A stretch of DNA of 53,988 nt from Hylemonella gracilis ATCC 19624 (GTDB lineage: Bacteria > Pseudomonadota > Gammaproteobacteria > Burkholderiales > Burkholderiaceae_C): NCBI RefSeq assembly GCF_000211835.1, contig NZ_AEGR01000041.1:1-53988 (forward strand), written 5' to 3'. Position 1 is the first letter of the stretch. The number at the start of each line of letters is the position of its first letter. Below the pieces are notes generated by a model, which was not told where the DNA came from, did no database searches, and saw only the letters and a list, made by a program, of their open reading frames with translations. Shown piece after piece: positions 525 through 50,467 of this stretch. The position numbers and the translations under genes were made by a program.

Positions 525-1316
525 TCAGTCCCAATAAGCCGGATCGGGCAATTCGCTGAAGACTTTGCGCAATTGCGCGCCCCAACGCTCGCGCAGCGAG
601 GCAAAGTACGGGTCCTTGGCATCGATCAGGGCTTGGCGCGTGACCCTCAGGCTGTCGGTCTGGTAGCACAGCAGGTCCAGGGGCAGCCCCACAGACAGAT
701 TGGACTTCATGGTCGAGTCCATCGAAATCAGGCAACACTTTGCCGCTTCGTCCAAGGACAGGTCGCCGTCAACCACGCGGTCCATGATGGGTTTGCCGTA
801 CTTGGACTCCCCGATCTGGAAGTAAGGCGTCTCGGGCGTGGCCTCGATGAAGTTGCCTGCGGCGTAAATGTTGAACAGTCGTGGCGGCTCGCCACGAATT
901 TGACCACCGAAGATCAGGTTGATGTTGAAGTCGATGCCGTACTCCTTGAGCGCGGCGGCTTCGCGGGCGTGCACACGACGCACCGTTTCGCCGACGATGC
1001 GCGCGGCCGAGAACATATTGGTCGCCGTCGCCAGATTGCGCCCCTCGTCCATCATCGCCTGTTGCTCGGCCGAGTCCGCTGGATTTTCGACCCGCCGCGG
1101 CTGCGTCGCTTGCTTCATCTGCACGCGCAAACTGCTGGCCACGGCCTGACTGAGCGAGAGATTGCCCGAGGACAGCAAGACCATCACCCGCTCGCCCGGC
1201 ACTTCGTAAACATGCATCTTGCGGAAAGTGCTGATCTGGTCCACCCCCGCGTTGGTGCGTGAGTCCGACAGAAAAACCAGGCCCGCATCAATGCGGACCG
1301 CCGTGCAGTAGGTCAT
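525..1316 (-). CDS. Proteasome-type protease, Anbu/BPH family
   Basis: A 263-residue Ntn-hydrolase of the Anbu (ancestral beta subunit, also called betaproteobacterial proteasome homologue) family, predicted to assemble into a cytoplasmic ring or spiral. I chose the Met at 1316 because the family begins Met-Thr-Tyr-Cys: removing Met exposes the Thr nucleophile without a propeptide. In mature numbering Asp17 (in LSDSRTNAG) and Lys32 (in FRKMHV) are present, matching the proteasomal Thr1/Asp17/Lys33 set within one residue. No convincing Shine-Dalgarno precedes this ATG; a TTG at 1370 is an alternative start but would bury the Thr. The family commonly sits with alpha-E, ATP-grasp and transglutaminase genes, all found just upstream here beyond one intervening gene. 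Its natural substrate is not established. Confidence 0.9.
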   Translation of the reverse strand: MTYCTAVRIDAGLVFLSDSRTNAGVDQISTFRKMHVYEVPGERVMVLLSSGNLSLSQAVASSLRVQMKQATQPRRVENPADSAEQQAMMDEGRNLATATNMFSAARIVGETVRRVHAREAAALKEYGIDFNINLIFGGQIRGEPPRLFNIYAAGNFIEATPETPYFQIGESKYGKPIMDRVVDGDLSLDEAAKCCLISMDSTMKSNLSVGLPLDLLCYQTDSLRVTRQALIDAKDPYFASLRERWGAQLRKVFSELPDPAYWD

Positions 1317-1484
1317 GGTGAGGTGGCCGTGGCACCGCGCTGCCGCGTTGCCCCAGCAAGATGAAGTCAAGGGTTCACCATCTTAGCGGCCTGCGCGCAT
1401 CCGGCCAGGTCGCTGACCTCAAGCCTGGGTGGATACCCCAGCGGTCACCGCAACCTTCCCGAACCAGCCGCCGCCGGCCGTCAC

Positions 1485-3224
1485 TCACGCGATGGCGACC
1501 GTCTCCGCTTCCTGCAAAGCTCGCCACATGACCTTGCCACTGCCACTCTTGGGCAATGCCTCGACGAACTGCACGATGCGCGGCGCCTTGTAGACCGCCA
1601 TGTTCTCGCGGCACCAGGCCATGATGTCTTCTTCGCTCACCACACCAACCTGCCCAGGGCGCAGAACCACCACCGCCTTGACAGTCTCTCCTCGATAGTT
1701 GTCCTTGGCGGCGATCACGCAGGCTTCCTGGATGGCGGGGTGCCTGAACATCAGGGCCTCCACCTCCGCCGGCCAGACCTTGAAGCCGCTGGCGTTGATC
1801 ATGCGTTTGAGGCGATCGGTGATGAAGAAATAACCTTCTTCATCCACGCGCCCCAGGTCACCGGTGCGGAAGAACCGCTTGCCATCGAGCTCAAAGAAGG
1901 CCTCCCGGGTGGCGTCCGGCCGTTTCCAATAACCTTGGAACACCATGGGACCGTGCACGACGATTTCACCCTGCTCGCCTGGCGGCAGCTCCCGCAGAGT
2001 CCCGGGATCCACCACACGCGCGTCGCAACCCATGAAGGGAATGCCCAGGCATTGCTGCTTCGGTCGATCAGGCGGATTGCTGTGCGAGGGGGCCGCGGTC
2101 TCGGTGAGTCCGTACCCCTCGGCGTAGCGCAGGTTGAACTGCTCGAACAGACGCTGCGCCACGGCCTGCGGCATGGCCGCGCCGCCGCCGCCGATGTAGG
2201 CCAAGCTGGAAAGATCAAAGCGTGCGAAGTTGGGACTGGCCATCAGATCGATCACCATGGTGGGAATATTGGTCCAGCTTGTGACCCGCCATTTGGAGAT
2301 CAGCCGCCCGGCGAGCTCCCTGTCCCAGCGCGGCATGATGACCAGGGTGGCGCCGCTGTAGATGGCGGCGTGCATCATGCTGACCATGCCGGTGATGTGG
2401 AACATGGGCACGACGGCCAGCACCACCGTCTCCATCGAGGCCCCGCTCCAGAGGCTGCCAGCGACTGCGTTGTGCATCAGGCTGGCATGGGTGTGCATGC
2501 ATCCCTTGGGCAAGCCGGTGGTCCCACTCGTGTAGGGCAAGGCCGCCAGATCATCCGCCCCCGCAATGACCCCGGGCAAAACATGCGCGTTGAGCAGGAC
2601 CTCGCTCCAGTCATGAACTTGCCCGCCCTCGAGCGCGGGCAAGGGATGGCGAGTCTGCAGCCACGACGACCAGGCCTCGGGCGGCGCATCATCGCCTGCC
2701 GCGTCAGGATCGAAGGCGTCGGTGAATTGCGTCACGATCAAGTGCAGCAAACGCTTGGGCGCTGGCAGTGCATTGCTGGCACGGGCCAATTCCGGCGCGA
2801 GATCGCCCGTGGTGATGGCGACCTTGACGTCCGGATCGGTGATGTAGTGCTTCAACTCCTCGAACCGGTTCATGGGATTGACCGGCACCACGACCGCATT
2901 CGCGCGCAGGATGGCGAAATGCGCGACGACCAGTTGCGGCGAGTTCTGCATGTCCAGGATCACACGGTCTCCCTGCTCCACCCCCAGGCTGTGCAAGAAG
3001 GCAGCCATGTGTTCCGCTTGGCGAGCCAGTTCCGCATACGACATCACTTCCCCAAGAAACGCCAATGCCGGCTTGTCGGGATAGCGTTGCGCGCTGATGG
3101 CCAGATTCATCCAGAGCGACGTTTGCGGGGGCGTGATCGCGTGCGGCAGGCGCTTGGGCCAGTGAGCGTGGTGGGGACGCCTGTCCGAAACCGGGGACGG
3201 CGAGGAAGGATTCTGCGCGGACAT
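1485..3224 (-). CDS. AMP-dependent acyl-CoA synthetase (long-chain fatty acid-CoA ligase type)
   Basis: An ANL-superfamily adenylating enzyme that activates a carboxylic acid with ATP and transfers it to CoA. The 579-residue product carries the phosphate-binding motif YTSGTTGLPKG (about residues 231-241), the aromatic motif GYGLTE, the FFRTGDLG hinge region, and the catalytic C-terminal lysine in KSGSGKV (about residue 564). The start at 3224 has AGGAG nine bases upstream, preferred over a longer frame starting at 3260. It lies between the alpha-E gene (190-base gap) and the Anbu gene (168-base gap), all on one strand, but the gaps are long enough that co-transcription is uncertain. Substrate length cannot be read from sequence. 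It has no known place in the Anbu cluster and may be an insertion or an unrelated gene. Confidence 0.9.
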   Translation of the reverse strand: MSAQNPSSPSPVSDRRPHHAHWPKRLPHAITPPQTSLWMNLAISAQRYPDKPALAFLGEVMSYAELARQAEHMAAFLHSLGVEQGDRVILDMQNSPQLVVAHFAILRANAVVVPVNPMNRFEELKHYITDPDVKVAITTGDLAPELARASNALPAPKRLLHLIVTQFTDAFDPDAAGDDAPPEAWSSWLQTRHPLPALEGGQVHDWSEVLLNAHVLPGVIAGADDLAALPYTSGTTGLPKGCMHTHASLMHNAVAGSLWSGASMETVVLAVVPMFHITGMVSMMHAAIYSGATLVIMPRWDRELAGRLISKWRVTSWTNIPTMVIDLMASPNFARFDLSSLAYIGGGGAAMPQAVAQRLFEQFNLRYAEGYGLTETAAPSHSNPPDRPKQQCLGIPFMGCDARVVDPGTLRELPPGEQGEIVVHGPMVFQGYWKRPDATREAFFELDGKRFFRTGDLGRVDEEGYFFITDRLKRMINASGFKVWPAEVEALMFRHPAIQEACVIAAKDNYRGETVKAVVVLRPGQVGVVSEEDIMAWCRENMAVYKAPRIVQFVEALPKSGSGKVMWRALQEAETVAIA

Positions 3225-3336
3225 GACAAGGAACTCCTGGTGCGGCAAACTACCAAGCAACCAGACTAGCCGCGCCGGTGAGCGCCGCGCATCCGGGAAA
3301 GCGCCAAAGCCCGCGCGGTCATCCAGGCTATCCCCA

Positions 3337-3353
3337 AGGTGAACGCGTCACCT
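3337..3353. other. Small inverted repeat between alpha-E and acyl-CoA synthetase genes
   Basis: AGGTGA and TCACCT arms of 6 bp flank a 5-base loop, with no T-run on either side. It is the only structure I see in the 189-base gap and is not a convincing terminator. Confidence 0.3.
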
Positions 3354-3413
3354 GGGAGACAGACCGGAGCAAAAGACGACTGGCGCGGACTACCGCCCCG
3401 AAAGTGCCAAGCC

Positions 3414-4385
3414 TTAGGCGAGCTCGGGCACCAGGAAATCGCGGCTGATGCGCGCGCCGATGTCGTTGACCCGCTCCAGGAACTTGGTCAAGAAAGCATG
3501 CAAGCCGGTGGCCAGGATGTCGTCGATGCGCTCGTACTGCAACTCCGCCAGCAGCTTGCCCGCCAGGTGACGGGTTTCGGCGATGCCCTCCGTCGCGCTT
3601 TCGCCCGCCACGAGGCCGAGGTTCTTCACCACCTCGGCCATGCTGGCGTGCAATGAACGCGGCATGTCGGCGCGCAGGATCAAGAGCTCGGCCACCCGCT
3701 CGGGGCGGATCACGTCACGGTAGACCTTGCGGTAGATCTCGAAGGCCGACACGCTGCGAAGGATGGCGCTCCAATGGTAGAAATCGTAGGCGCGGTCCTT
3801 TTCGTCGGCGTTGCCAAAAAACTCGCTCTGCACCGCATGGAACTTCACGTCCACCAACCGCGCCGTGTTGTCGGCGCGTTCGAGAAACGTGCCCAGACGC
3901 ATGAAGTGCAGCGCTTCGTCCACCAGCATGGTGCCCTGGGTGACCCCTCGGGACAGGTGCGAGCGGTGCTTGACCCATTCCAGCAGGCGTGCGGGGTCGC
4001 GTTCCAGATCCCCGAGGCGCAGCATGCGCTTGAACTCCAGCCAGGTTTGGTTCTGCGTTTCCCAGACCTCGGTGGTCAGGCTGCCGCGCACGGCGCGCGC
4101 GTTTTCGCGGGCCGCGCGCAGGCAAGACAGGATGGACGACGGGTTGTTTTCGTCGCTGACCATGAAGGCCATCACGTCGCGTGGCGTCACCTCGCCATGG
4201 CGCGCGGTGTAGGCGGGCAACAGTTCGCTGATGGACAGCAGGCTCTGCCAGCCCAGCAAGGCCACGGCGGCGGACTGGGGCAGCATGGCAGTTTCATGGT
4301 TGACGCTCAACATGCGGGCGGTGTTTTCGGCCCGTTCCGTGTAGCGGTTCATCCAAAACAGATGGTCGGCGGTACGCGACAGCAT
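3414..4385 (-). CDS. Alpha-E domain protein (DUF403, COG2307)
   Basis: A 323-residue, largely alpha-helical protein beginning MLSRTADHLFWMNRYTERAENTAR, which is the typical N-terminus of this family. The alpha-E fold has no demonstrated enzymatic activity; it is found almost always beside the circularly permuted ATP-grasp protein and has been suggested to assist it in forming peptide-like bonds. Here its start lies 23 bases after the stop of the ATP-grasp gene on the same strand, so the two are almost certainly one operon. Length is normal and there is no signal peptide or membrane segment. Function is inferred from context only. Confidence 0.92.
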   Translation of the reverse strand: MLSRTADHLFWMNRYTERAENTARMLSVNHETAMLPQSAAVALLGWQSLLSISELLPAYTARHGEVTPRDVMAFMVSDENNPSSILSCLRAARENARAVRGSLTTEVWETQNQTWLEFKRMLRLGDLERDPARLLEWVKHRSHLSRGVTQGTMLVDEALHFMRLGTFLERADNTARLVDVKFHAVQSEFFGNADEKDRAYDFYHWSAILRSVSAFEIYRKVYRDVIRPERVAELLILRADMPRSLHASMAEVVKNLGLVAGESATEGIAETRHLAGKLLAELQYERIDDILATGLHAFLTKFLERVNDIGARISRDFLVPELA

Positions 4386-4408
4386 TCAAACTTCTCCTCA
4401 AGCCGACG

Positions 4409-5914
4409 TCAAACTTCCAGTACCCAGGAATCCTTGGTGCCCCCGCCCTGCGACGAATTGACCACCAGGGAACCTTCCTTGAGCGCCACGCGGGTCAGCC
4501 CCCCCGCGACCATCTGCACGGTCTTGCCCGTCAGCACGAAGGGCCGCAAGTCGATGTGACGTGGCGCGATGCCGCTTTCAACAAAGGTCGGGCAGGTCGA
4601 CAGGGACAACGTGGGCTGCGCGATGTAGTTGCCCGGTTTTTCCTTGAGCACGCGGGCGAAATCCTCGATCTGCTGGCGGGTCGAGGCCGGCCCGACCAGC
4701 ATGCCGTAGCCGCCCGCGCCATGCACCTCCTTGACCACCAGGTCTTTCAGGTTGGCCAGCACGTATTTCAGATCCTCGGGCTTGCGACACATGTAGGTGG
4801 GCACGTTGTTGAGGATGGGTTTCTCGCCAAGGTAGAACTCGATCATCGCGGGCACGTAGGGGTAGATGGACTTGTCGTCCGCCACTCCCGTGCCAACAGC
4901 GTTGCAAAGGGTCACGTGACCGGCGCAGTAGGCCTCCATCAAGCCGGCGCAGCCCAGGGTCGAATCGGCGCGGAACACGTGCGGGTCCAGGAAGTCATCG
5001 TCAAGCCGTCGGTAAATCACGTCGACGCGCTTGGGACCGCGCGTGGTGCGCATGTAGACAAAACCGTCGCGCACGAACAGATCCTGCCCCTGAACCAGTT
5101 CCACACCCATTTGCTGGGCCAGGAAAGCGTGCTCGAAATAGGCGCTGTTGTACATGCCGGGCGTGAGCACGACCACGGTGGGCTCGCCCGTGGTGTCGGG
5201 AGCCGACGCGCGCAAGGTCTCGAGCAACAGGTCGGGATAGTGTTCGACCGGCGCGACGCGGTGTGCGTTGAACAACTCGGGGAAGAGCCGCATCATCATC
5301 TTGCGGTCTTCGATCATGTAGCTGACACCGCTGGGAACGCGCAGGTTGTCTTCCAGCACGTAGTACTGTCCCACGCCATCGGCATCTGGCGCACGCACGA
5401 TATCGACGCCGCTGATGTGAGAGTAGATGTCGTTGGGCACGTGCACACCCATCATCTGGGGACGGTACTGCGCGTTGTGCAGGATTTGCTCGGCCGGGAT
5501 CACGCCGGCGCGCAGGATTTCCTGGTCGTGGTAGACATCGTGGATGAAGCGGTTGAGCGCCGTCACGCGCTGCGCCAAGCCACGCTCCATGCCGCCCCAC
5601 TCCGCGGCGGGAATGATGCGGGGAATCAAATCAAAGGGAATCAGGCGCTCGGTCCCGGATCCGTCTTCGTCCTTGTCGCCATAGACCGCGAAGGTGATGC
5701 CCACGCGGCGGAAAATCATCTCGGCCTCTTCGCGCCGGGCTTTCATGGCGTCGGCACTCTGCGCCGCCAGCCATTGCGCGTAAGCCCGGTAATGAGATCG
5801 AATGTCGCTGGCAGTGCCTTGCGTCATGAACTGCGCGCCCGAGGCGCCACCCTGCTTCATCAGGCCGGCAGCCAACGCGCCGGACTCCAGGTACATCTCG
5901 TCAAACTTCAACAT
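4409..5914 (-). CDS. Circularly permuted ATP-grasp protein (DUF404/DUF407, COG2308)
   Basis: A 501-residue member of the circularly permuted ATP-grasp group, predicted to ligate a carboxylate to an amine through an acyl-phosphate. Visible landmarks are FDEMY at the N-terminus, the block TFAVYGDKDEDGSGTERLIPFD, the VKEVHGAGGYGMLVGPA loop, and the C-terminal SSQGGGTKDSWVLE. I start at 5914 because MLKFDEMY matches how relatives begin; an ATG at 5956 with a GAGG too close to it would add 14 residues. It is the first gene of the minus-strand operon with alpha-E. Relatives have been predicted to form peptide-like products, possibly handled by the linked transglutaminase and Anbu protease; that is inference. 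Confidence 0.92.
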   Translation of the reverse strand: MLKFDEMYLESGALAAGLMKQGGASGAQFMTQGTASDIRSHYRAYAQWLAAQSADAMKARREEAEMIFRRVGITFAVYGDKDEDGSGTERLIPFDLIPRIIPAAEWGGMERGLAQRVTALNRFIHDVYHDQEILRAGVIPAEQILHNAQYRPQMMGVHVPNDIYSHISGVDIVRAPDADGVGQYYVLEDNLRVPSGVSYMIEDRKMMMRLFPELFNAHRVAPVEHYPDLLLETLRASAPDTTGEPTVVVLTPGMYNSAYFEHAFLAQQMGVELVQGQDLFVRDGFVYMRTTRGPKRVDVIYRRLDDDFLDPHVFRADSTLGCAGLMEAYCAGHVTLCNAVGTGVADDKSIYPYVPAMIEFYLGEKPILNNVPTYMCRKPEDLKYVLANLKDLVVKEVHGAGGYGMLVGPASTRQQIEDFARVLKEKPGNYIAQPTLSLSTCPTFVESGIAPRHIDLRPFVLTGKTVQMVAGGLTRVALKEGSLVVNSSQGGGTKDSWVLEV

Positions 5915-6257
5915 GCGGCCTAGCCTTGCTCTGGGTCTTTCCGATCTTCCGGTCATGCCCTCGTCTCAGCTTACGGTAAGGGGTTCCAGACGTTGACGAG
6001 GCGGTGCCTCGCCAGCGGTCTGCACTTCACTTGGCTGCAAAGACTTGTGCGTGACCTGAACACAAGCGTACCAGCAAATTCCGGGCCTACCCCCAAATAG
6101 GGGCCACGGATGCGCCGCCCTCACATCCATGCTCCCTTGGCTCAGCTCTTGCTATAAGCTGTTCAAACCGCACCGGGGTTGAACACATCACTCTCCGTCA
6201 TCTGCCGCAACGCACGGCTCACCACCACGCCTCCACCCAGCCCGTCCCCATCGCGCC
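5915..6257. other. Divergent intergenic region of the ATP-grasp/transglutaminase cluster
   Basis: A 343-base gap between divergent genes that should hold both promoters. I see a CGAGGC/GCCTCG inverted repeat near 5996-6010 and a TATAAG at 6153 without a correctly spaced -35. No clear consensus promoter or operator can be supported. Confidence 0.4.
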
Positions 6258-9200
6258 ATGTCCATCCACGCCGCACTCCAGCACGTCACCCACTACAAGT
6301 ACGACCGTCCGGTACAACTGGGTCCGCAGACCGTGCGGCTGAGACCTGCGCCCCATTGCCGCAGCAAGATCATCTCGTACTCGCTGCGGGTTGAACCGGC
6401 CCAGCATTTCATCAATTGGCAGCAAGACCCCTTCGCCAACTACCAGGCGCGGCTGGTGTTTCCTGACAAGACCCGCGAATTCAAGGTCGCGATCGATCTG
6501 GTGGTCGAGATGGCGGTGTACAACCCCTTCGACTTCTTCCTTGAGCCAGAGGCGGAGCATTTCCCCTTCAGCTACAACCCCGCCTTGAGTGAGGAACTGG
6601 CGCCTTACTTGGTGGCAGCGCCACTCACGCCGCTGCTCAAGCAGTACCTGGAGGGCATTGATCGCCAGAAACGCCGCACGGTGGATTTCCTGGTCGCGCT
6701 CAACCAGCGGCTGCAAACCGACATCCAGTACCTCATCAGGCTGGAACCTGGCGTGCAAACCCCAGAAGAAACGTTGCGCAAGGCCAGCGGTTCCTGCCGC
6801 GATTCTGGCTGGCTGCTGGTCAACCTGCTGAGGCATTGCGGCTTGGCGGCACGTTTTGTCTCGGGTTACCTGATCCAACTGACGCCAGACGTGAAAGCCA
6901 TCGATGGCCCCAGTGGCACCACCGTCGACTTCACGGACCTGCATGCCTGGTGCGAGGTCTACCTGCCCGGCGCGGGTTGGATCGGCCTGGACCCCACCAG
7001 CGGCCTGATGGCGGGCGAGGGCCACGTTCCGCTGGCCTGCACTCCGCAACCGTCCGGTGCCGCGCCCATTGAGGGCATGTTTTCGGTGGCGGGCCCCGAG
7101 AGTGACGGGGACGAGGCAGAAGTCGAGTTTTCACACCACATGGAGGTGACGCGCATCCACGAATCGCCGCGCGTGACCAAGCCCTACAGCGATGCGCAAT
7201 GGGCCGCCATCATGGCCCTGGGAGAGCAGGTGGAAAGCCAGTTGCAGGCGGGCGATGTGCGCCTGACCATGGGCGGCGAACCCACTTTTGTCGCCACCAG
7301 CGATCGCGATGCACCTGAATGGAACACCGATGCACTAGGCCCCACCAAACGTGGCTACGCCACCGAGTTGGTGCACAAATTGCGCACCGAATATGGGCGA
7401 GGTGGTTTTCTTCATTTCGGGCAAGGCAAGTGGTACCCGGGCGAGCAGTTGCCACGTTGGGCTTTGTCCATTTGCTGGCGGGCTGATGGCGAACCCATCT
7501 GGCACGACCCGGACTTGTTCGCCGACGAGCGATCACCAGGCCAATACGGCAGTGAAGACGCCCGCCTATTCACCCACACGCTGGCCAGCAAGTTGGGGCT
7601 GAACACACGGTACATCCAGCCTGGCTACGAGGACACGTGGTACTACCTGTGGCGCGAGCGACGCCTGCCGGTCAATGTGGACCCCTTCGATGCCCGACTG
7701 GACGACGAACTGGAACGCCAGCGCCTGCGGCGGGTCTTCAGCCAGAAATTGGATGCTGTCGTGGGCTACGCGCTGCCCTTGCAGGCGGGTGCGGGGCCTA
7801 CGCTGGGAGGCTCCCGCTGGAGCACTGGCCCCTGGTTCTTCAGGGACGAGCGCATGTACCTCATGCCGGGCGACTCGGCCATGGGGTATCGCCTGCCTTT
7901 GGACTCCCTGCCCTGGGTCGGTGAGGGCGACTATCCGTGGGTCATCCAACAAGACCCCTATGACCCGCGCCCACCGCTGCAGCGCGCTGCGGCCATCCGG
8001 GCGCAGTACACAGCCCGCAAACTGAGTGGCAATGGCAACGGTGACTGGGGAGGCGAATCCCAGACCGCCAGCCCCACTGGCATGAACCCCGGTACGGTGC
8101 AGCATGCGGCGGCGTCTCAACGCCACCCCCAGCGTTTCGAATCCGCGCACTGGATCACGCGGACCGCGCTGTGCGTGGAGGCGCGCGACCCCATGCGCGC
8201 CAACGGTCCAAAGGCAGAACGAGAACATGGCGGCAAGAGCGGCCTCCTCTATGTCTTCATGCCGCCCCTGGCGCGACTGGAAGACTATCTGGACCTGCTG
8301 TCCGCAATCGAGGCGACGGCCGCCGAACTGGGCTTCAAGATCGTGCTCGAAGGCTACCCGCCACCGCGCGACGCCCGACTCAAGATGCTGCAGGTCACGC
8401 CTGACCCCGGTGTGATCGAGGTCAACATCCACCCTTCGCACAACTGGAAGGAGCTGGTTCAACGCACCGAGTTCCTTTACCAAGCGGCCTTCGAAACGCA
8501 CCTGTGCGCCGAAAAGTTCATGACCGATGGTCGCCACACCGGCACTGGCGGAGGCAACCACTTCGTGCTTGGCGGAGCCACGCCCGCCGACAGTCCCTTC
8601 TTGCGCCGACCGGAACTGCTGGCCAGCCTGCTGCTCTACTGGCACAACCACCCATCGCTGAGCTACTTGTTCAGCGGCCTCTTCATCGGCCCGACCAGCC
8701 AGGCGCCGCGGGTGGACGAGGCTCGCAACGACCAGCTGTACGAGCTGGAGATCGCGCTGCGCGAGATCCAGGTGAACCGCCAGAAGTACGGGCAGGACAT
8801 GCCGCCCTGGCTGCTGGACCGCACACTGCGCAACATCCTGATCGACGTGACGGGCAACACCCACCGTAGCGAGTTCTGCATCGACAAGATGTACTCGCCG
8901 GATGGCCCCACCGGCCGCCTGGGCCTGCTGGAACTGCGCGCGTTTGAGATGCCACCCCACGCGCGCATGAGCATCGCGCAGCAGTTGCTGTTGCGCGCCC
9001 TGGTCGCACGCTTCTGGCAGCAGCCCTACCAGGCACCCGCCACGCGTTGGGGCACGGAGTTGCATGATCGATTCCTGTTGCCTACCTTCGTCAAGATGGA
9101 CTTTGCCGACGTCTTGCAAGAGATGCGACAAGCCGGTTTCGCCTTCGAGGACGCGTGGTTCGCCCCGCATTTCGAGTTCCGCTTTCCGCTCGCCGGTGAA

Positions 9201-9731
9201 CTGCAGATGCTGGGCATGAACCTGACGCTGCGCAACGCCCTCGAGCCCTGGCATGTGATGGGCGAGGAAGGCGCCGCCGGCGGTACCGTGCGCTATGTGG
9301 ATTCCTCGTTGGAGCGCATCGAAGTCCGAGTGACTGGTCTCAACCCCAGCCGCCACACGGTCACGGTCAACGGCCGGCCCCTGCCCTTGCAGCCCACGGG
9401 AACCGTGGGCGAGTACGTTGCGGGGGTGCGCTACAAGGCCTGGAACCCGCCATCCAGCCTGCACCCCACGATCGGCGTGCACGCGCCGCTGGTGTTCGAT
9501 CTGGTGGACACCTGGATGCAGCGTAGCCTGGGCGGCTGCCAGTACCACGTGGCGCATCCAGGAGGGCGCAACTACATCACCTTCCCGATCAATGCCTACG
9601 AGGCTGAGAGCCGTCGCCTGGCGCGTTTTTCCCTCACCCGCCACACGCACGAACCACTGCCGGTTCCACCTGCCACCCAGGCTATCCCAGGCAGCCGGGA
9701 GTTTCCTTACACCCTGGATCTGCGGAATTGA
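6258..9731 (+). CDS. Transglutaminase-like domain fused to DUF2126 (COG1305-COG4196)
   Basis: A 1157-residue protein. Residues 1 to about 290 form a bacterial transglutaminase N-terminal region plus a transglutaminase-like cysteine peptidase core with a full triad: Cys180 in GSCRDSGW, His229 in DLHAWCEVY and Asp245 in GLDPTSG. The rest, from about residue 310, is DUF2126, beginning near LTMGGEPTFVA and including HPSHNWKELV and GGGNHFVLGG. There is no signal peptide. It lies divergent from the ATP-grasp/alpha-E operon, as in related genomes. The fold could hydrolyse or form amide bonds; substrate unknown. A stop at 9731 leaves a 165-base gap to rpsT. A very long open frame on the opposite strand is a composition artefact. 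Confidence 0.92.
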   Translation: MSIHAALQHVTHYKYDRPVQLGPQTVRLRPAPHCRSKIISYSLRVEPAQHFINWQQDPFANYQARLVFPDKTREFKVAIDLVVEMAVYNPFDFFLEPEAEHFPFSYNPALSEELAPYLVAAPLTPLLKQYLEGIDRQKRRTVDFLVALNQRLQTDIQYLIRLEPGVQTPEETLRKASGSCRDSGWLLVNLLRHCGLAARFVSGYLIQLTPDVKAIDGPSGTTVDFTDLHAWCEVYLPGAGWIGLDPTSGLMAGEGHVPLACTPQPSGAAPIEGMFSVAGPESDGDEAEVEFSHHMEVTRIHESPRVTKPYSDAQWAAIMALGEQVESQLQAGDVRLTMGGEPTFVATSDRDAPEWNTDALGPTKRGYATELVHKLRTEYGRGGFLHFGQGKWYPGEQLPRWALSICWRADGEPIWHDPDLFADERSPGQYGSEDARLFTHTLASKLGLNTRYIQPGYEDTWYYLWRERRLPVNVDPFDARLDDELERQRLRRVFSQKLDAVVGYALPLQAGAGPTLGGSRWSTGPWFFRDERMYLMPGDSAMGYRLPLDSLPWVGEGDYPWVIQQDPYDPRPPLQRAAAIRAQYTARKLSGNGNGDWGGESQTASPTGMNPGTVQHAAASQRHPQRFESAHWITRTALCVEARDPMRANGPKAEREHGGKSGLLYVFMPPLARLEDYLDLLSAIEATAAELGFKIVLEGYPPPRDARLKMLQVTPDPGVIEVNIHPSHNWKELVQRTEFLYQAAFETHLCAEKFMTDGRHTGTGGGNHFVLGGATPADSPFLRRPELLASLLLYWHNHPSLSYLFSGLFIGPTSQAPRVDEARNDQLYELEIALREIQVNRQKYGQDMPPWLLDRTLRNILIDVTGNTHRSEFCIDKMYSPDGPTGRLGLLELRAFEMPPHARMSIAQQLLLRALVARFWQQPYQAPATRWGTELHDRFLLPTFVKMDFADVLQEMRQAGFAFEDAWFAPHFEFRFPLAGELQMLGMNLTLRNALEPWHVMGEEGAAGGTVRYVDSSLERIEVRVTGLNPSRHTVTVNGRPLPLQPTGTVGEYVAGVRYKAWNPPSSLHPTIGVHAPLVFDLVDTWMQRSLGGCQYHVAHPGGRNYITFPINAYEAESRRLARFSLTRHTHEPLPVPPATQAIPGSREFPYTLDLRN

Positions 9732-9845
9732 AGGCCTGGGGGACGGCAGCCCTCGCCGACCCCAAGTTGCCGCGGGCCAAGGCGCACCCCGTCCGGCCGC
9801 AGGAGCCGGCGTGTGGTGCGCCTGCGGGAACCAACCGCGCCCGGC

Positions 9846-9851
9846 TATAAT
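9846..9851 (+). promoter_or_regulatory. Probable -10 element of the rpsT promoter
   Basis: A perfect TATAAT lies 45 bases before the rpsT start codon. The region 17 bases upstream does not resemble TTGACA, so only the -10 half is supported. Confidence 0.55.
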
Positions 9852-9896
9852 TGCGGGCTCTGCTGACAACATCCACAGACACAAAGGAAACTTCTC

Positions 9897-10199
9897 ATGG
9901 CCTCTGGAAAGCCGAAGAAAAAGAACCCGCGCCTCGCGTCGGGCCGCAAACGCGCACGTCAGGACGTCAAGCTCAATGCCGCCAACACGTCCCTGCGCTC
10001 CAAATACCGTACTGCCGTCAAGAACGTTGAAAAAGCCGTTCTGACGGGTGACAAGGCCAAGGCCACCGAACTGTTTGCCAAGATGCAAGCCGTGGTGGAC
10101 TCCGTGGCTGACAAGCAGATCTTTCACAAGAACAAGGCCGCTCGCGACAAGAGCCGCCTGTCCGCCAAGGTCAAGGCACTCGGCGCAGCCGCCGCTTGA
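9897..10199 (+). CDS. rpsT: 30S ribosomal protein S20
   Basis: A small, very basic primary rRNA-binding protein of the 30S subunit. The 100 residues begin [23 protein letters not shown], keep the expected helical Lys/Arg/Ala-rich pattern and end in a short alanine run. Usual length is about 87-90, so this one has a slightly long N-terminus. An AAAGGAAA ribosome-binding site precedes the ATG. It is monocistronic here, with its own -10 box and two hairpins after the stop. Confidence 0.97.
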
Positions 10200-10208
10200 A
10201 CCGTCGCC

Positions 10209-10230
10209 GCCTGATGGTGAACCATCAGGC
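10209..10230 (+). other. Perfect hairpin directly after rpsT
   Basis: A 10-bp stem GCCTGATGGT/ACCATCAGGC with a 2-base loop starts 10 bases after the stop. It has no T-run, so it is more likely an RNA-stabilising or processing hairpin than a terminator. Confidence 0.5.
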
Positions 10231-10290
10231 AAGCCCGGAGCGGCAACTTCGCTGCTCCGCCGTTTGAAACGGGTGCGCTGTCCACAGAGC

Positions 10291-10321
10291 AAAACGCCGC
10301 TGGAAAACCAGCGGCGTTTTT
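10291..10321 (+). terminator. rpsT: rpsT terminator
   Basis: A 13-bp stem (AAAACGCCGCTGG, loop AAAA, complementary arm) ending in TTTTTG. Because of the flanking A and T runs it may also serve the convergent DUF3579 gene. Confidence 0.85.
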
Positions 10322-10351
10322 GTTTGGGCGTTTCGAATCGACGGAAAACCT

Positions 10352-10672
10352 TCAGCCCACGATCGGCTTGCCCTGCGCGTCCAGCTCGATCATCTGCAGA
10401 TCGTTGTCCTTCGCGAAATTGACGCAGAAGTCCCAGGCCTTGGGCTCGACCTCGCGCAACTCACGGTTGACGATGACGCATTTCACGCCATCCGCCGTCG
10501 TACTGGGCACACACCACGGCGAGTAGGCCCAATGACCGCCCCGCGTCGCGACACCCGGGCAGAACTGGCTCATCACCCCCGCCAGGCGCTCGGCCCAGTC
10601 ACTGGGACGAAAAGTCTTGCCTGAGCGGGTCAGCCCGAGGATGTGGACTTCTTTGACGGCGGTGGAAACCAT
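10352..10672 (-). CDS. DUF3579 family protein
   Basis: A 106-residue cytoplasmic protein with the family pattern ILGLTRSGKTFRPSDWAERL, a central GGHWAYSPWCVP stretch and a C-terminal PKAWDFCVNFAKDNDLQMIEL. DUF3579 is common in betaproteobacteria and has no assigned biochemical role. It is divergent from argD with a 152-base gap that contains a 12-bp AT-rich palindrome 16 bases before its start codon. No domain suggests an enzyme despite GLTRSGKT, which is not a full P-loop. Confidence 0.85.
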   Translation of the reverse strand: MVSTAVKEVHILGLTRSGKTFRPSDWAERLAGVMSQFCPGVATRGGHWAYSPWCVPSTTADGVKCVIVNRELREVEPKAWDFCVNFAKDNDLQMIELDAQGKPIVG

Positions 10673-10687
10673 GACGCAAGTATTCTA

Positions 10688-10699
10688 TCTTATATAAGA
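10688..10699. promoter_or_regulatory. Perfect 12-bp palindrome, likely operator
   Basis: TCTTATATAAGA reads the same on both strands, in the divergent gap between the DUF3579 gene and argD. Its position 16-27 bases before the DUF3579 start would let a bound dimer block that promoter. I cannot name the regulator. Confidence 0.45.
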
Positions 10700-10824
10700 C
10701 TTGAGGCAATGCGACACCCCATCATGACACCACCCAGGCCCTAAAATGCGCGCACGGTTTTCCAGTCGGCCCAAGCCGCCGCAAGCGCTTGGGCCGCTTT
10801 GTTTTCCTCTTCGAATCGCGCCCC

Positions 10825-12039
10825 ATGAACCACCCTGCCGCCCTGCCCGCCGCGCCCAGCTCGCCCCACGTGATGAACACCTACGGCCGCGTGCCGATCG
10901 CGTTGTCGCACGGCCACGGCTGCCGCGTCTGGGATGTCAACGGCAAGGAGTACCTGGACGCCCTGGCGGGCATCGCTGTGAACACCCTGGGCCACAACCA
11001 CCCGCGCCTCGTGCCAGCCCTTCAGGACCAGATATCCAAGCTGATCCACACCTCTAACTATTACCACGTGCCGGGCCAGGAACAACTGGCGGCTCGATTG
11101 GCCGAACTTTCGGGCATGAGCAAGGCCTTTTTCTGCAACAGCGGCCTCGAGGCGAACGAGGCAGTGCTCAAGCTGGCCCGCAAGTTCGGGCATGACAAAG
11201 GCATCAGCAACCCGCAAATCGTGGTCTACGAACGCGCCTTTCACGGCCGTTCGATCGCCACCCTGAGCGCCACCGGCAACACCAAACTGCAAAAGGGCTT
11301 CGAGCCCATGGTACCGGGCTTCATCCGCGTGCCCCTCAATGACATCGAGGCGCTGAAGCGGGCGACCGAAGGCAATCCCGACGTGGTCGCCGTGTTCTTC
11401 GAAACCATCCAGGGCGAAGGCGGCATCAACGCCATGCGCAACGAATACCTGCGCGCCGTGCGCGCGCTGTGCACGGAACGGGACTGGCTGCTGTGCATCG
11501 ACGAGGTGCAAAGCGGCATGGGCCGTACTGGCAAATGGTTCGCCCACCAGTGGGCGGGCATCGTGCCGGATGTGATGGCGCTGGCCAAGGGTTTGGCTTC
11601 TGGCGTTCCCATTGGGGCCATCGTCACGGGCCCGAAAGCCTCGGAAGTGCTGCAACCCGGCAACCACGGCAGCACCTTCGGCGGCAACCCACTGGCCATG
11701 CGCGCGGGCCTTGAGACCCTGCGCATCATGGAAGAAGACGGCTTGTTGGAGAACGCCGCCAGGATGGGCGACTACCTGATGGGACGCCTGCGCGCCGAGC
11801 TGGGCACGCACCCAGGCGTGAAGGAGGTGCGTGGCCAAGGCTTGATGATCGGAATGGAGCTCGCAAAGCCCTGCGGTACGTTGATCGCCCGTGCGGCCGA
11901 AGCGGGCTTGCTGATCAGCGTGACGGCCGACAGCGTGGTCCGCCTGCTGCCACCGCTCATCATCAGCCAGGCAGAGGTTGACGAGTTGCTGGCGCGCCTG
12001 CTGCCCTTGGTGCGCGCCTTCCTCGCAGAACAAGAATGA
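10825..12039 (+). CDS. argD: Acetylornithine aminotransferase
   Basis: A PLP-dependent class III aminotransferase of arginine synthesis that interconverts N-acetylornithine and N-acetylglutamate semialdehyde using glutamate/2-oxoglutarate. The 404 residues show MNTYGRVPIALSHG, the cofactor region FFCNSGLEANEA, LLCIDEVQSGMGRTG, and the Schiff-base lysine in MALAKGLASGVPIGA. Start chosen at 10825 (MNHPAALP); an in-frame ATG at 10789 lies in leader-like sequence. The stop overlaps the argF start by four bases (ATGA), so argD-argF is an operon. A TAAAAT at 10742-10747 may be the -10 element. It may also act on succinyldiaminopimelate in lysine synthesis, as relatives do. Confidence 0.95.
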   Translation: MNHPAALPAAPSSPHVMNTYGRVPIALSHGHGCRVWDVNGKEYLDALAGIAVNTLGHNHPRLVPALQDQISKLIHTSNYYHVPGQEQLAARLAELSGMSKAFFCNSGLEANEAVLKLARKFGHDKGISNPQIVVYERAFHGRSIATLSATGNTKLQKGFEPMVPGFIRVPLNDIEALKRATEGNPDVVAVFFETIQGEGGINAMRNEYLRAVRALCTERDWLLCIDEVQSGMGRTGKWFAHQWAGIVPDVMALAKGLASGVPIGAIVTGPKASEVLQPGNHGSTFGGNPLAMRAGLETLRIMEEDGLLENAARMGDYLMGRLRAELGTHPGVKEVRGQGLMIGMELAKPCGTLIARAAEAGLLISVTADSVVRLLPPLIISQAEVDELLARLLPLVRAFLAEQE

Positions 12040-13004
12040 ACGCCGCCATGTCTCAGAAACTCAAGCACTACCTGCAGTTCAGCGACTTCAACGCGGAGGA
12101 GTACGCCTACCTCTTCGAGCGCTCGCGCTTCATCAAGGCCAAGTTCAAGGCTTTCGAGAAATACCACCCCTTCGCCGACCCTGACCGCACGCTGGCGATG
12201 ATCTTCGAAAAGGCCTCCACGCGCACGCGCGTGAGCTTCGAGGCGGGCATGTACCAGCTCGGCGGCAGCGTGGTCCACCTGACCACGGGCGATAGCCAGT
12301 TGGGCCGGGCCGAACCCATCGAAGACAGTGCGCGCGTGATCAGCCGCATGGTGGACCTCGTGATGATCCGCACCTTTGGCCAGGACAAGATCGAGCGCTT
12401 CGCGGCGCACTCGCGCGTGCCCGTGATCAATGGCCTGACCAACGAATACCACCCATGCCAGATCCTCGCAGACTTGTTCACCTACCTTGAGTACCGTGGC
12501 GTGGGTGCGGACGGCAGACTGGACCCAGGCTGCCTGAAAGGCAAGGTCGTGGCTTGGGTGGGTGACGGCAACAACATGGCCAACACCTGGCTGCAGGCCG
12601 CCGACCTGCTGGGCTTCACCGTGCACGTGAGCACACCGAGCGGCTACGAAATTGACCCAGCCATCGCCCATGTCCGAAGCGACTGCTACAAGGTCTTCAA
12701 GGACCCGCTTCAGGCTTGCGTGGGCGCCGACTTGGTCACCACCGATGTCTGGACCAGCATGGGTTACGAGGCCGAGAATGAAGCGCGCCGTAAGGCCTTC
12801 GCAGACTGGTGCGTGGATAGCCGGATGATGAAGGCTGCCAAGTCCGACGCCCTTTTCATGCACTGCCTGCCTGCCCATCGGGGCGAGGAAGTCTCGGCCG
12901 ATGTCATCGATGGGCCGCAGTCGGTGGTTTGGGACGAAGCCGAGAACCGGATGCATGTGCAGAAAGCGCTCATGGAGTACCTGCTCCTGGGCCGCTTGAC
13001 TTGA
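12036..13004 (+). CDS. argF: Ornithine carbamoyltransferase
   Basis: Catalyses carbamoyl phosphate plus ornithine to citrulline, in the cytoplasm. The 322-residue product has the carbamoyl-phosphate loop STRTRVSFE, the HPCQ motif in NEYHPCQILADL, and the catalytic-cysteine motif MHCLPAHRGEEV. The start at 12036 overlaps the argD stop; an ATG at 12048 (MSQKLKHYLQF) is an equally plausible start. The stop codon lies in a short inverted repeat (GACTTGA/TCAAGTC, 12998-13013) with no T-run, and the next gene follows 28 bases later. Confidence 0.96.
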   Translation: MNAAMSQKLKHYLQFSDFNAEEYAYLFERSRFIKAKFKAFEKYHPFADPDRTLAMIFEKASTRTRVSFEAGMYQLGGSVVHLTTGDSQLGRAEPIEDSARVISRMVDLVMIRTFGQDKIERFAAHSRVPVINGLTNEYHPCQILADLFTYLEYRGVGADGRLDPGCLKGKVVAWVGDGNNMANTWLQAADLLGFTVHVSTPSGYEIDPAIAHVRSDCYKVFKDPLQACVGADLVTTDVWTSMGYEAENEARRKAFADWCVDSRMMKAAKSDALFMHCLPAHRGEEVSADVIDGPQSVVWDEAENRMHVQKALMEYLLLGRLT

Positions 13005-13363: not shown

Positions 13364-13440
13364 TGGCCTGCCCGGAGGGAATCGAACCCCCGACCCACAG
13401 CTTAGAAGGCTGTTGCTCTATCCAACTGAGCTACGGGCAG
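13364..13440 (-). tRNA. tRNA-Arg (anticodon TCT)
   Basis: The reverse strand folds as a tRNA: acceptor CTGCCCG pairs with CGGGCAG, the D-arm contains AGCTCAGTTGGATAGAGC, the anticodon stem ACAGC/GCTGT encloses CTTCTAA, and the T-arm has GGTTCGATTCC. The CCA end is encoded. Anticodon TCT reads AGA/AGG, rare codons in this high-GC genome. Confidence 0.97.
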
Positions 13441-14599: not shown

Positions 14600-14676
14600 T
14601 GGTCGGTGTGAAAGGATTCGAACCTTCGACCCCTTGCACCCCATGCAAGTGCGCTACCAGGCTGCGCCACACACCG
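14600..14676 (-). tRNA. tRNA-Pro (anticodon GGG)
   Basis: Reverse strand: acceptor CGGTGTG pairs with CACACCG, the D-arm holds GCGCAGCCTGGTAGCGC, the anticodon stem CTTGC/GCAAG encloses ATGGGGT (anticodon GGG), and the T-arm has GGTTCGAATCC. The CCA end is encoded. Reads CCC codons. Confidence 0.97.
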
Positions 14677-18493: not shown

Positions 18494-21118
<2,625 letters not shown>

Positions 21119-48088: not shown

Positions 48089-50467
48089 TCATTCGACCCG
48101 CGTGACGGCCGTGGGCTTGAAGCCCAGGTCTGCCGCCTTGCCCTTGCGGCCCCGCGCGGCCTTGGCGTTGTTGAGGCTGCGGATTTCCAGCGTCTCGTCG
48201 CGCTCCTTGCCGCCCCGGCCCAGGCCTTCGATGCGCACACTGCGCGTGTAGGCCGCCGCGCCGGCCAGTTGGTCCTTGGGTTCCAGATCGATCAGCATCA
48301 GGCCGCGACCGCCGCTGGGCATGGGCTTGAGTTCACCGATCTGGAAGCTCAGGATGCGCCCGCCCGTGGACACGCAGACCACGTGGCTGGCCGGGCTGTG
48401 CAAACCGCCCTCGGCCGCGCTCGCGACCACTCCCGTGGCGGGGTTGGGCGCGTGCGCCATCGAGGGACGGCAGACGGTGTCGGGCGTGCCGTCGCTGCCG
48501 CAGTTGATGAAGGCCTTGCCGCCCTTTTGCCGCGACACCATGTGCTCCACCTGGGCCAGGAAACCGTAGCCCCCCGAGGTGGACAGCAGCAGCCAGGCCG
48601 AGGCCGGACCCGCGTAGTAATGGACCAATTGCGTTCCGGCTTCCAACTCGACCATCGTCGTCAAGGGCTGGCCATCGCCGCGCGCACCTGGCAAAGCCGA
48701 GACGGGCACGGAATAGACGCGGCCATTGCTGCCGAAAGCCAGCATCACGTCCACCGTGCGGCATTCGAAGGTGCCGTACAGGCCGTCGCCCGCCTTGAAG
48801 GCGAAGCTGGCCGCGTCATGGCCGTGGCCCTGGCGGGCACGCACCCAGCCCTTTTGCGACACCACGACGGTGACCGGTTCGTCGATGACCTTCACTTCGG
48901 CCACGGCCTTCTTTTCGGCTTGGATCAGGGTGCGGCGCGCATCGCCAAAAGCCTTGGCGTCGGCCTCGATCTCCTTGACCATCAGCTTGCGCAGCGCGGC
49001 CGGACTGCCCAGGATGTCCTGGAGTTCTTTTTCCTTACCGCGCAGTTCAGCCAATTCCTGCTCGATCTTGATCGCTTCCAGCCGCGCCAACTGGCGCAGG
49101 CGGATTTCGAGGATGTCCTCGGCCTGACGGTCGCTCAGGCGGAAGCGCTTGATCAGCGCGGGCTTGGGCTCGTCCGAGTTGCGGATGATCTTGATGACCT
49201 CGTCCACGTTGAGCAGCACGGTCTGCCGCCCCTCGAGGATGTGGATGCGGTCCTGCACCTTGCCCAGGCGGTGCTGCGAGCGCCGCGCGATGGTCTGCCG
49301 GCGAAAGGCGATCCACTCCTCCAGCATCTGGCGCATGGACTTCTGCACCGGCTTGCCGTCCAAGCCCACCATGGTCAGGTTGATGGGCGCGGAAGTTTCC
49401 AGGCTGGTGTGAGCCAGCAGCGTGGTGATCAGTTCGTTCTGGTCGATCTTGCTGGTCTTGGGCTCGCAGACCAGGCGCACCGGCGCGTCCTTGCTGGACT
49501 CGTCGCGCACACCGTCCAGCACGGACAGCAGCGTGGACTTGAGTTGCGTCTGCTCCTGGGTGACGGTCTTCTTGCCCGCCTTGACCTTGGGGTTGGAGAG
49601 TTCCTCGATTTCCTCCAGCACCTTCTGCGTGCTCACGCCCGGCGGCAGTTCGGTCACGACCAATTGCCACTGGCCGCGCGCCAGTTCCTCGATCTTCCAG
49701 CGCGCGCGGACTTTCAGCGAACCGCGTCCGGTGCGGTAGGCCTCGGCAATGTCGGCCTCGGCGCTGATGATCTGCCCGCCGCCCGGGTAATCCGGCCCCG
49801 GCAGCAGCTCGAACAGTTCCTCGTCCTTGAGCTTGGGGGTCTTGATCAGGGCCACGCAGGCCGCGGCCACTTCGCTGATGTTGTGGCTGGGGATCTCGGT
49901 CGCCAAGCCCACGGCGATGCCGCTCGCGCCGTTGAGCAAGGTGAACGGCAGGCGCGCCGGCAACTGCTTGGGCTCCTCGGTGGAGCCGTCGTAGTTGGGC
50001 ATGAAGTCCACCGTGCCCTCGTCGATTTCGTCGAGCAGCAGGGAGGAAATCTTGGCCAGGCGCGCCTCGGTGTAGCGCATGGCGGCCGCGCCGTCACCGT
50101 CGCGGCTGCCGAAGTTGCCCTGACCGTCGATCAGCGGGTAGCGCTGCGCGAAGTCTTGCGCCATGCGCACCAGCGCGTCGTAGGCAGCCTGGTCGCCGTG
50201 CGGGTGGAAACGGCCCAGCACGTCACCGACCACGCGCGCACTCTTGACCGGTTTGGCGGCTGTGTTGCCGCTGTAGCCCAGGCCCATGCGCTCCATGGCG
50301 TAGAGGATGCGGCGCTGCACGGGTTTTTGCCCGTCGCTCACGTCGGGCAAGGCCCGGCCCTTGACGACGGACAGCGCGTACTCGAGGTAGGCGCGCTGGG
50401 CGTAGTTGGCGAGCCAGAGGCTGTCGCCCGTTTCGCCCTGGTTCAGATCGGTGGTTTCAGTGCTCAT
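48089..50467 (-). CDS. parC: DNA topoisomerase IV subunit A
   Basis: The DNA-cleaving subunit of topoisomerase IV, which decatenates daughter chromosomes. The 792 residues include the catalytic tyrosine in [10 protein letters not shown], the quinolone-target region [20 protein letters not shown] and a C-terminal beta-pinwheel. At the positions of E. coli Ser80 and Glu84 this protein has Gln and Asp. It starts 11 bases after parE, so parE-parC form an operon. It is ParC rather than GyrA by length, by linkage to parE, and by lacking a clear GyrA box. Confidence 0.95.

Follow-up and report, generated by a model that had tools for sequence, protein, structure and literature searches.

Anbu, a homologue of the proteasome, forms an open ring and binds proteasome inhibitors (PMC5666114). 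It has solved structures but no known substrate, a question shared by four widespread families that are encoded together in what is already called the Anbu operon in print, for example PP_2685-2688 of Pseudomonas putida and its counterpart in Yersinia bercovieri: Anbu, a transglutaminase, an Alpha-E protein and an ATP-grasp protein. A related NtrC-dependent cluster, BCAM1233-1236 of Burkholderia cenocepacia, comprises ATP-grasp, Alpha-E, transglutaminase and large transglutaminase genes. In a further arrangement, seen at Variovorax and Pseudomonas loci (L125 and L187), a transglutaminase fused to DUF2126 (TG-DUF2126) forms a triad with a fused ATP-grasp-Alpha-E gene and a transglutaminase gene. 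Here we analyze a 53,988-nucleotide stretch of Hylemonella gracilis ATCC 19624 (hereafter the window), which is one complete contig (C75) from a genome of 3.6 Mb in 115 contigs and whose closest named relatives are Burkholderiales. Positions 525-9731 hold all four families, and we find this locus to be a real, well-preserved member of a known system whose function is unsolved; its layout is mosaic and interrupted. The first-pass annotation, made from the letters of the window, had offered it as the strongest candidate in the window for an undescribed biological system; the word undescribed has to be withdrawn, given that the operon is named in print and that its induction on nitrogen limitation in P. 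putida and its NtrC dependence in B. cenocepacia are both published. Its account of the families, as unsettled in function, linked by comparative genomics and without a known product, is borne out.

The window has the same four families and the same Anbu residues as the Anbu operon, whose induction by nitrogen limitation has been seen in P. putida. Read 5' to 3' on the minus strand, a circularly permuted ATP-grasp type 2 gene (4409-5914, with the likely start MLKFDEMY at 5914 in a frame open to 5956) is followed after a 23-base gap by Alpha-E (3414-4385; 323 amino acids, with the two ER motifs YTERAENTAR and FLERADNTAR), by a long-chain acyl-CoA ligase gene (1485-3260; AMP-binding, PRK08314 subfamily, possible ATG start near 3224) and by Anbu (525-1316), a proteasome-like N-terminal nucleophile (Ntn) hydrolase of 263 amino acids. 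The TG-DUF2126 gene (6258-9731) lies on the plus strand, divergent from ATP-grasp with about 300-340 bases between, and joins a transglutaminase (about residues 1-280) to DUF2126, a putative amidoligase (285-1157). Unlike in the Anbu operon, the co-directional run is thus broken by the acyl-CoA ligase between Alpha-E and Anbu, the transglutaminase is the divergent DUF2126 fusion on the opposite strand, with no short transglutaminase next to Anbu in the window, and there are sigma54-like sites but no NtrC box. TG-DUF2126 accompanies ATP-grasp and Alpha-E both in the window and in the triad; unlike in the triad, the fusion and transglutaminase genes do not directly follow TG-DUF2126 but stand on contig C98, as a second locus (L003) in the same genome. 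The interposed ligase, the sigma54-like sites and this second locus had all escaped the first-pass annotation.

Pfam and PDB matches, conserved columns and catalytic residues confirm the earlier claim that the four families stand together with intact residues. Alpha-E matches PF04168 (E=9e-97), the ATP-grasp frame (4409-5956) matches CP_ATPgrasp_2 (PF14403, E=1e-165) and is kin of the solved protein 3n6x (E=3e-208), and the plus-strand gene matches Bact_transglu_N (2e-25), Transglut_core (2e-16) and DUF2126 (E=0). The listed Anbu open reading frame (ORF; 525-1370) gives a weak match to the general Proteasome family (9.5e-6) and strong ones to solved Anbu chains (5loy, 9e-97; 5nyw, 7e-78). Its start is likely the ATG at 1316 (MTYC...), as in 45 compared Anbu starts, so that the 5' end of the listed ORF extends 54 bases too far. 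At columns conserved in at least 97% of relatives, with short, broken and duplicate rows excluded, the window departs at 0/53 for Anbu, 0/48 for Alpha-E, 0/90 for the transglutaminase part, 2/157 for ATP-grasp (L to I, T to S) and 3/259 for DUF2126. The transglutaminase part retains Cys180, His229 and Asp245, which we take to be its catalytic residues, and Anbu retains Thr1, Asp17 and Lys32, whose functional roles are taken from PMC6376114.

A survey of relatives, which the first-pass annotation had proposed, covered 120 genomes of the order, 150 of the phylum and 60 of the window's own family, and the families do occur together; the outcome that the annotation had named as refuting, genes that fail to co-occur in relatives, is not what was seen. 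Among the order genomes, where Anbu was matched in 61, Alpha-E in 65, DUF2126 in 41 and Bact_transglu_N in 62, Anbu was accompanied by Alpha-E in 60/61 (Fisher p=6e-27), DUF2126 by Alpha-E in 41/41 (46/46 in the phylum sample) and the ATP-grasp-Alpha-E fusion by DUF2126 in 22/22; 5 of the 65 Alpha-E genomes have no Anbu match. Anbu lies at most 10 kb from a stand-alone Alpha-E in 49 of the 60 order genomes having both, one partial Alpha-E piece (G050) being excluded from the distance counts. In the window's own family, Alpha-E is matched in 54 genomes and Anbu in 50, 49 of which have both. By our comparison of the two match tables, only 11 of these 49 have the two within 10 kb, which counts against one fixed locus, and no other core gene was found within the 3-6 kb examined on either side of 20 separate family Anbu genes.

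Upstream regions were scanned for sigma54 sites in the window, in L003, in 60 hand-chosen regions (40 drawn from the family sample of 60 genomes and 20 from the order sample of 120) and in 80 further loci, which are the best 80 of at least 591 DUF2126 matches and so close kin. A site had to lie within 220 nt upstream with up to two mismatches and with GG and GC fixed; some loci occur in both region sets, and identical upstreams were counted once except in the split of TG-DUF2126 into leading and internal genes. Such sites precede 67/95 ATP-grasp genes and 69/86 operon-leading TG-DUF2126 genes, whereas they precede 3/35 internal TG-DUF2126 genes, 1/91 Alpha-E genes, 0/122 DUF2126 parts, 9/107 fusion genes and 6/89 third transglutaminase genes. 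Shuffled upstreams yielded 1 to 4 sites per set, and neighbor ORFs, a mechanical control set with false ORFs included, had a site in 47/979. An initial, stricter scan had given 23/60 and 15/43, compared with an expected 0.019 per stretch. Leading genes of named loci have a site in 15/15 Pseudomonas and 34/37 Burkholderiales cases, with taxon labels read from record titles and Burkholderiales as the default. NtrC-like boxes (up to two mismatches) occur upstream of the sigma54 site in 27/138 regions compared with about 6 in pair-block shuffles, and in the window's genome there are one match to RpoN and one to NtrC over the cut-off. Within the window, the candidate site TGGCTC-N5-TTGCT (6138-6153, plus strand, one mismatch) lies about 105 bases 5' of the TG-DUF2126 start and is one of two that good in 54 kb; a weaker one, AGGCCC-N5-TTGCT (6073-6088, minus strand, two mismatches), faces the ATP-grasp gene. 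Many of the sampled loci from Burkholderiales and Pseudomonas thus share a predicted sigma54 signature, and this is what our analysis adds; we recognized no paper that generalizes sigma54/NtrC control over these families, in a search that left the subscription literature mostly uncovered and is no proof of absence.

Published expression data come from relatives of the locus. In nitrogen-limited P. putida wild type, PP_2686-2688 (transglutaminase, Alpha-E, ATP-grasp) are 11-15-fold up, which the authors assign to NtrB/NtrC (PMC7801951), and PP2685-2687 are 6.6-11.1-fold up under nitrogen compared with carbon limitation (PMC3325844). On nitrate compared with ammonium, PP_2685 is 22-fold and PP_2688 16-fold up (log2 4.44 and 3.99), and the PP_2688 (ATP-grasp) promoter is induced 3.7-fold on nitrogen depletion, whereas the PP_2685 (Anbu) promoter is constitutive and not induced (PMC8050072); these promoter data agree with sigma54 sites before ATP-grasp but not before Anbu. 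In B. cenocepacia, expression of BCAM1233-1236 is 6-9-fold lower in an ntrC mutant, an effect shared with sigma54 (PMC5491218). The Yersinia homologue YbATP-grasp is reported to release phosphate from ATP. The main text of a Mycobacterium smegmatis nitrogen transcriptome (PMC4617892) lacks the terms transglutaminase, DUF, ATP-grasp and amidoligase. Two further leads were set aside: an ATP-grasp table row in a P. phymatum study could not be tied to this family, and the transglutaminase homologue of a Caulobacter NtrC study is HvyA. A literature search on M. tuberculosis locus names gave a single paper, which had no bearing on the system.

ATP-needing ligases together with Cys and Ntn hydrolase-type partners, kept together over the phylum and induced at low nitrogen, make reversible amide conjugation the simplest reading. 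Our tentative preference, held at somewhat less than even confidence, is a system induced by nitrogen starvation, most likely through sigma54 and NtrC, that makes and breaks amide bonds. Judging from their families, ATP-grasp and Alpha-E would activate a carboxylate with ATP and join it to an amine; DUF2126, which Pfam describes as a putative amidoligase, would be a second ligase; and the transglutaminase-like Cys enzymes and Anbu would form the transferring or releasing half. The whole set would then conjugate amides reversibly, and a starving cell might use it to capture, recycle or release nitrogen, the capture of small amines being one possibility. We infer the reactions and their direction, the substrate, the forming of an amide, the acceptor and release by transglutaminase and Anbu. 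Reversible conjugation is performed by glutathionylspermidine synthetase/amidase and by gamma-glutamylation pathways. The former resembles the locus in pairing an ATP-grasp ligase with a Cys amidase-type enzyme, and 3n6x is a close homologue of the window's ATP-grasp; it differs in that the window's ATP-grasp is circularly permuted and its transglutaminase-fold partner separate, and a link to polyamines would be by analogy. Sigma54-like sites before most of the sampled ATP-grasp and leading TG-DUF2126 genes point to nitrogen limitation as the condition and to these as the genes to watch, and the search for a substrate thereby becomes a defined experiment for laboratory strains.

Several observations weigh against this preference. 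The most important is that a P. putida rpoN mutant continues to show PP_2686-2688 up by 14-20-fold, and the urt genes up as well (PMC7801951), which speaks against strict sigma54 dependence in that species; we treat it as a warning rather than a refutation because the urt genes, cited there as NtrC-induced, also stay up. In the same study PP_2685 (Anbu) is hardly changed in the nitrogen-limited wild type (1.12), and in our scan Anbu has a sigma54 site in 2/25 linked and 1/20 unlinked cases. Outside Pseudomonas and Burkholderiales few sites are found: leading TG-DUF2126 genes have one in 2/5 Rhodocyclales, 1/1 other gamma, 0/2 Opitutae/Acidobacteria metagenome-assembled genome and 0/2 unplaced cases. 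Counted across all of the window, sigma54-like sites with two or fewer mismatches are no more frequent than expected by chance (43 compared with 39.7), so the window's own site rests on its position and on its relatives. Its intergenic region has no NtrC-like box better than four mismatches, and the separated fusion gene on C98 has no sigma54 site upstream. On the biochemical side, YbAnbu cleaved none of the tested substrates and had no specific partner detected (PMC6376114), and ligase, amidase or peptidase activity is absent from the available parts of the reports consulted on these families. Finally, spending ATP on amides is not obviously useful to a cell short of nitrogen.

The same enzymes could instead build a small-molecule or peptide-like metabolite that transglutaminase and Anbu trim, as in the peptide-synthesis system of Iyer 2009 as cited. 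Ligase and hydrolase-type families do keep together, and the closest relative of the ATP-grasp, 3n6x, was deposited as a putative glutathionylspermidine synthase. The neighborhood lends this little: the most frequent neighbor gene, comEC (46/140 loci; its representative has Competence and Lactamase_B domains), gives no functional hint, the remainder are assorted genes, and no transporter or carrier protein was found among the 10 representatives identified from the 22 most frequent neighbor clusters. PMC5666114 also deems peptide synthesis less likely, and we regard this explanation as doubtful.

Protein tagging in the style of pupylation is a further possible reading. The Pup-proteasome system combines a glutamine synthetase-type ligase, of which DUF2126 would be a putative counterpart, with a proteasome-like protease, and is used in nitrogen starvation, as the locus may be. 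By this account the ligases would modify proteins with amino acids or a small tag, Anbu would degrade or detag them, and starved cells would recycle the amino acids; induction on nitrogen limitation, the sigma54 sites and the homology of Anbu to the proteasome, including its binding of proteasome inhibitors, all fit. Predicted structures bear on it too. Sequence comparison of the DUF2126 part found no solved relative (the matches were weak ones to the transglutaminase part or at chance level), and its model is of moderate quality (predicted local distance difference test, pLDDT, 69.8; predicted template modeling score, pTM, 0.74). The first PDB match of the model is a glutamine synthetase (2wgs, E=0.27, probability 0.41), none reaches 0.001 or better, and weak matches further down include another glutamine synthetase and the depupylase Dop (8fbp 0.46, 5lrt 1.1). 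Small beta domains (superoxide dismutases, a TRAP subunit) rank in between, with better probabilities that reach 0.72 over about 110 columns. This weak likeness to glutamine synthetase and Dop favors tagging and is in line with the Pfam label of putative amidoligase, but is not proof.

The gene content is less favorable to tagging. Among the 763 small ORFs in the 317 gaps that separate core genes, none was found to be widely conserved: the largest cluster across loci comprises 13 loci and is on the reverse strand, and its four listed members are all Pseudomonas. A nearby precursor gene, whether Pup-like or of the kind that encodes ribosomally synthesized and post-translationally modified peptides, was sought and none was found, the small-ORF clusters looking antisense or like unmatched core-gene ends. 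This leans away from an encoded Pup-like tag, although a tag may be encoded elsewhere. In contrast to the Pup-proteasome system, no Pup-like gene was found in the gaps, the locus has no gene for an AAA unfoldase, and Anbu is an open ring; the published tests of Anbu gave neither peptidase activity nor a specific partner, and the 5 Alpha-E genomes without an Anbu match count in the same direction. We consider tagging and degradation of this kind unlikely. A nitrogen-starvation conjugation system of Gram-negative bacteria that parallels pupylation in function but with a different tag, in which DUF2126 and ATP-grasp/Alpha-E would couple proteins or polyamines to an amino acid or a non-ribosomal peptide, transglutaminase and Anbu would remove it or degrade the product and Alpha-E would be an acceptor-handling subunit of new fold, is in our judgment quite unlikely as well. 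The Alpha-E model itself is confident (pLDDT 89.7, pTM 0.89) and all-helical, with 16 helices; sequence comparison found no solved relative (E up to 1), and among the 50 PDB matches listed for the model none is convincing, with E values of 0.46 or more and probabilities of at most 0.25. The predicted Alpha-E fold may therefore be unrepresented in the PDB.

The arrangement of the genes varies among relatives. Three layouts are seen in the 60 regions: ATP-grasp-Alpha-E-transglutaminase-Anbu; ATP-grasp-Alpha-E-Anbu-TG-DUF2126; and ATP-grasp-Alpha-E with TG-DUF2126-fusion-transglutaminase, often with comEC between. In Anbu-linked operons, TG-DUF2126 seems to take the place of the short transglutaminase, and vice versa. 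The acyl-CoA ligase of the window could in principle be a fifth component that makes the product an N-acyl (lipid-linked) amide: it is co-directional and stands between Alpha-E and Anbu, distant relatives (25-33% identity) occur in 5/140 mapped loci, and two relatives are close to core genes, 335 bases after Alpha-E in L089 and 658 bases before TG-DUF2126 in L173. However, none of the 23 other regions holding both Anbu and Alpha-E has one between them, and in 13 of these Anbu is 32-113 bases from Alpha-E with nothing mapped between. On this count the ligase is probably a bystander, and a lipid-linked product seems very improbable. The L089 gene (10630-12231; family genome G141) is acyl-CoA-ligase-like, with 28% identity to the window's, and directly follows Alpha-E on the same strand.

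Anbu and Alpha-E of the window have different closest kin, so the operon reads as a mosaic, with Anbu of one line beside an ATP-grasp/Alpha-E pair of another. An Anbu tree with 45 rows places the window in one group (100/99) with G121, G167, three genomes of another family and G133, which is of the same genus; the 20 unlinked Anbu genes from the window's own family make up a clade apart (97/99). The Alpha-E tree, built from 59 rows by a quick method, puts the window with its own family (SH-aLRT 98) and G133 with the other one (99). Resolution within the family is poor in the Alpha-E tree, the bootstrap of the Anbu tree had not converged, and rows with stops or too short were omitted from both. 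Gene transfer is, on these two trees, the likely route, and the mosaic hints that Anbu beside an ATP-grasp/Alpha-E pair is favored. Order genome G112 has, ahead of the operon, another Anbu that diverges strongly (37% identity, long branch) and is perhaps of the Anbu-2 type (L114, 3825-4547).

At the second locus of the window's genome (L003), the fused ATP-grasp-Alpha-E gene (8808-11819) and the short transglutaminase gene (7723-8739) are both on the minus strand. Among the 22 order genomes that carry the fusion, 19 have such a pair at most 10 kb from TG-DUF2126. The window's genome belongs to the other three: both modules are present, and the triad is divided over two contigs. A third transglutaminase-like gene (Transglut_core2 with TPR; L003 13604-14599) lies about 1.8 kb from the fusion and is divergent from it. 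About 0.9 kb upstream of that gene, facing away from the fusion gene, is a perfect match to the sigma54 -24/-12 consensus, TGGCACCCGCTTTGCT (L003 12666-12681, plus strand).

In the window, Anbu is flanked by a GcvH-like gene (37-495). A GcvH-like gene also adjoins Anbu in L065 and lies 4-6 kb away in L080 and L100, a flank in common with other Anbu-linked relatives. Downstream of TG-DUF2126, on the same strand, an argD-like aminotransferase and an ornithine carbamoyltransferase (10789-13004) are ordinary arginine genes, followed by tRNA-Arg(tct) at 13364-13440 and tRNA-Pro(ggg) at 14600-14676. Further along are a ClpB-like chaperone gene (18494-21118) and topoisomerase IV subunit A- and B-like genes (48089-50467 and 50479-52461). 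A topoisomerase IV A-like protein also represents a neighbor cluster found in seven other loci, which perhaps share a gene neighborhood with the window.

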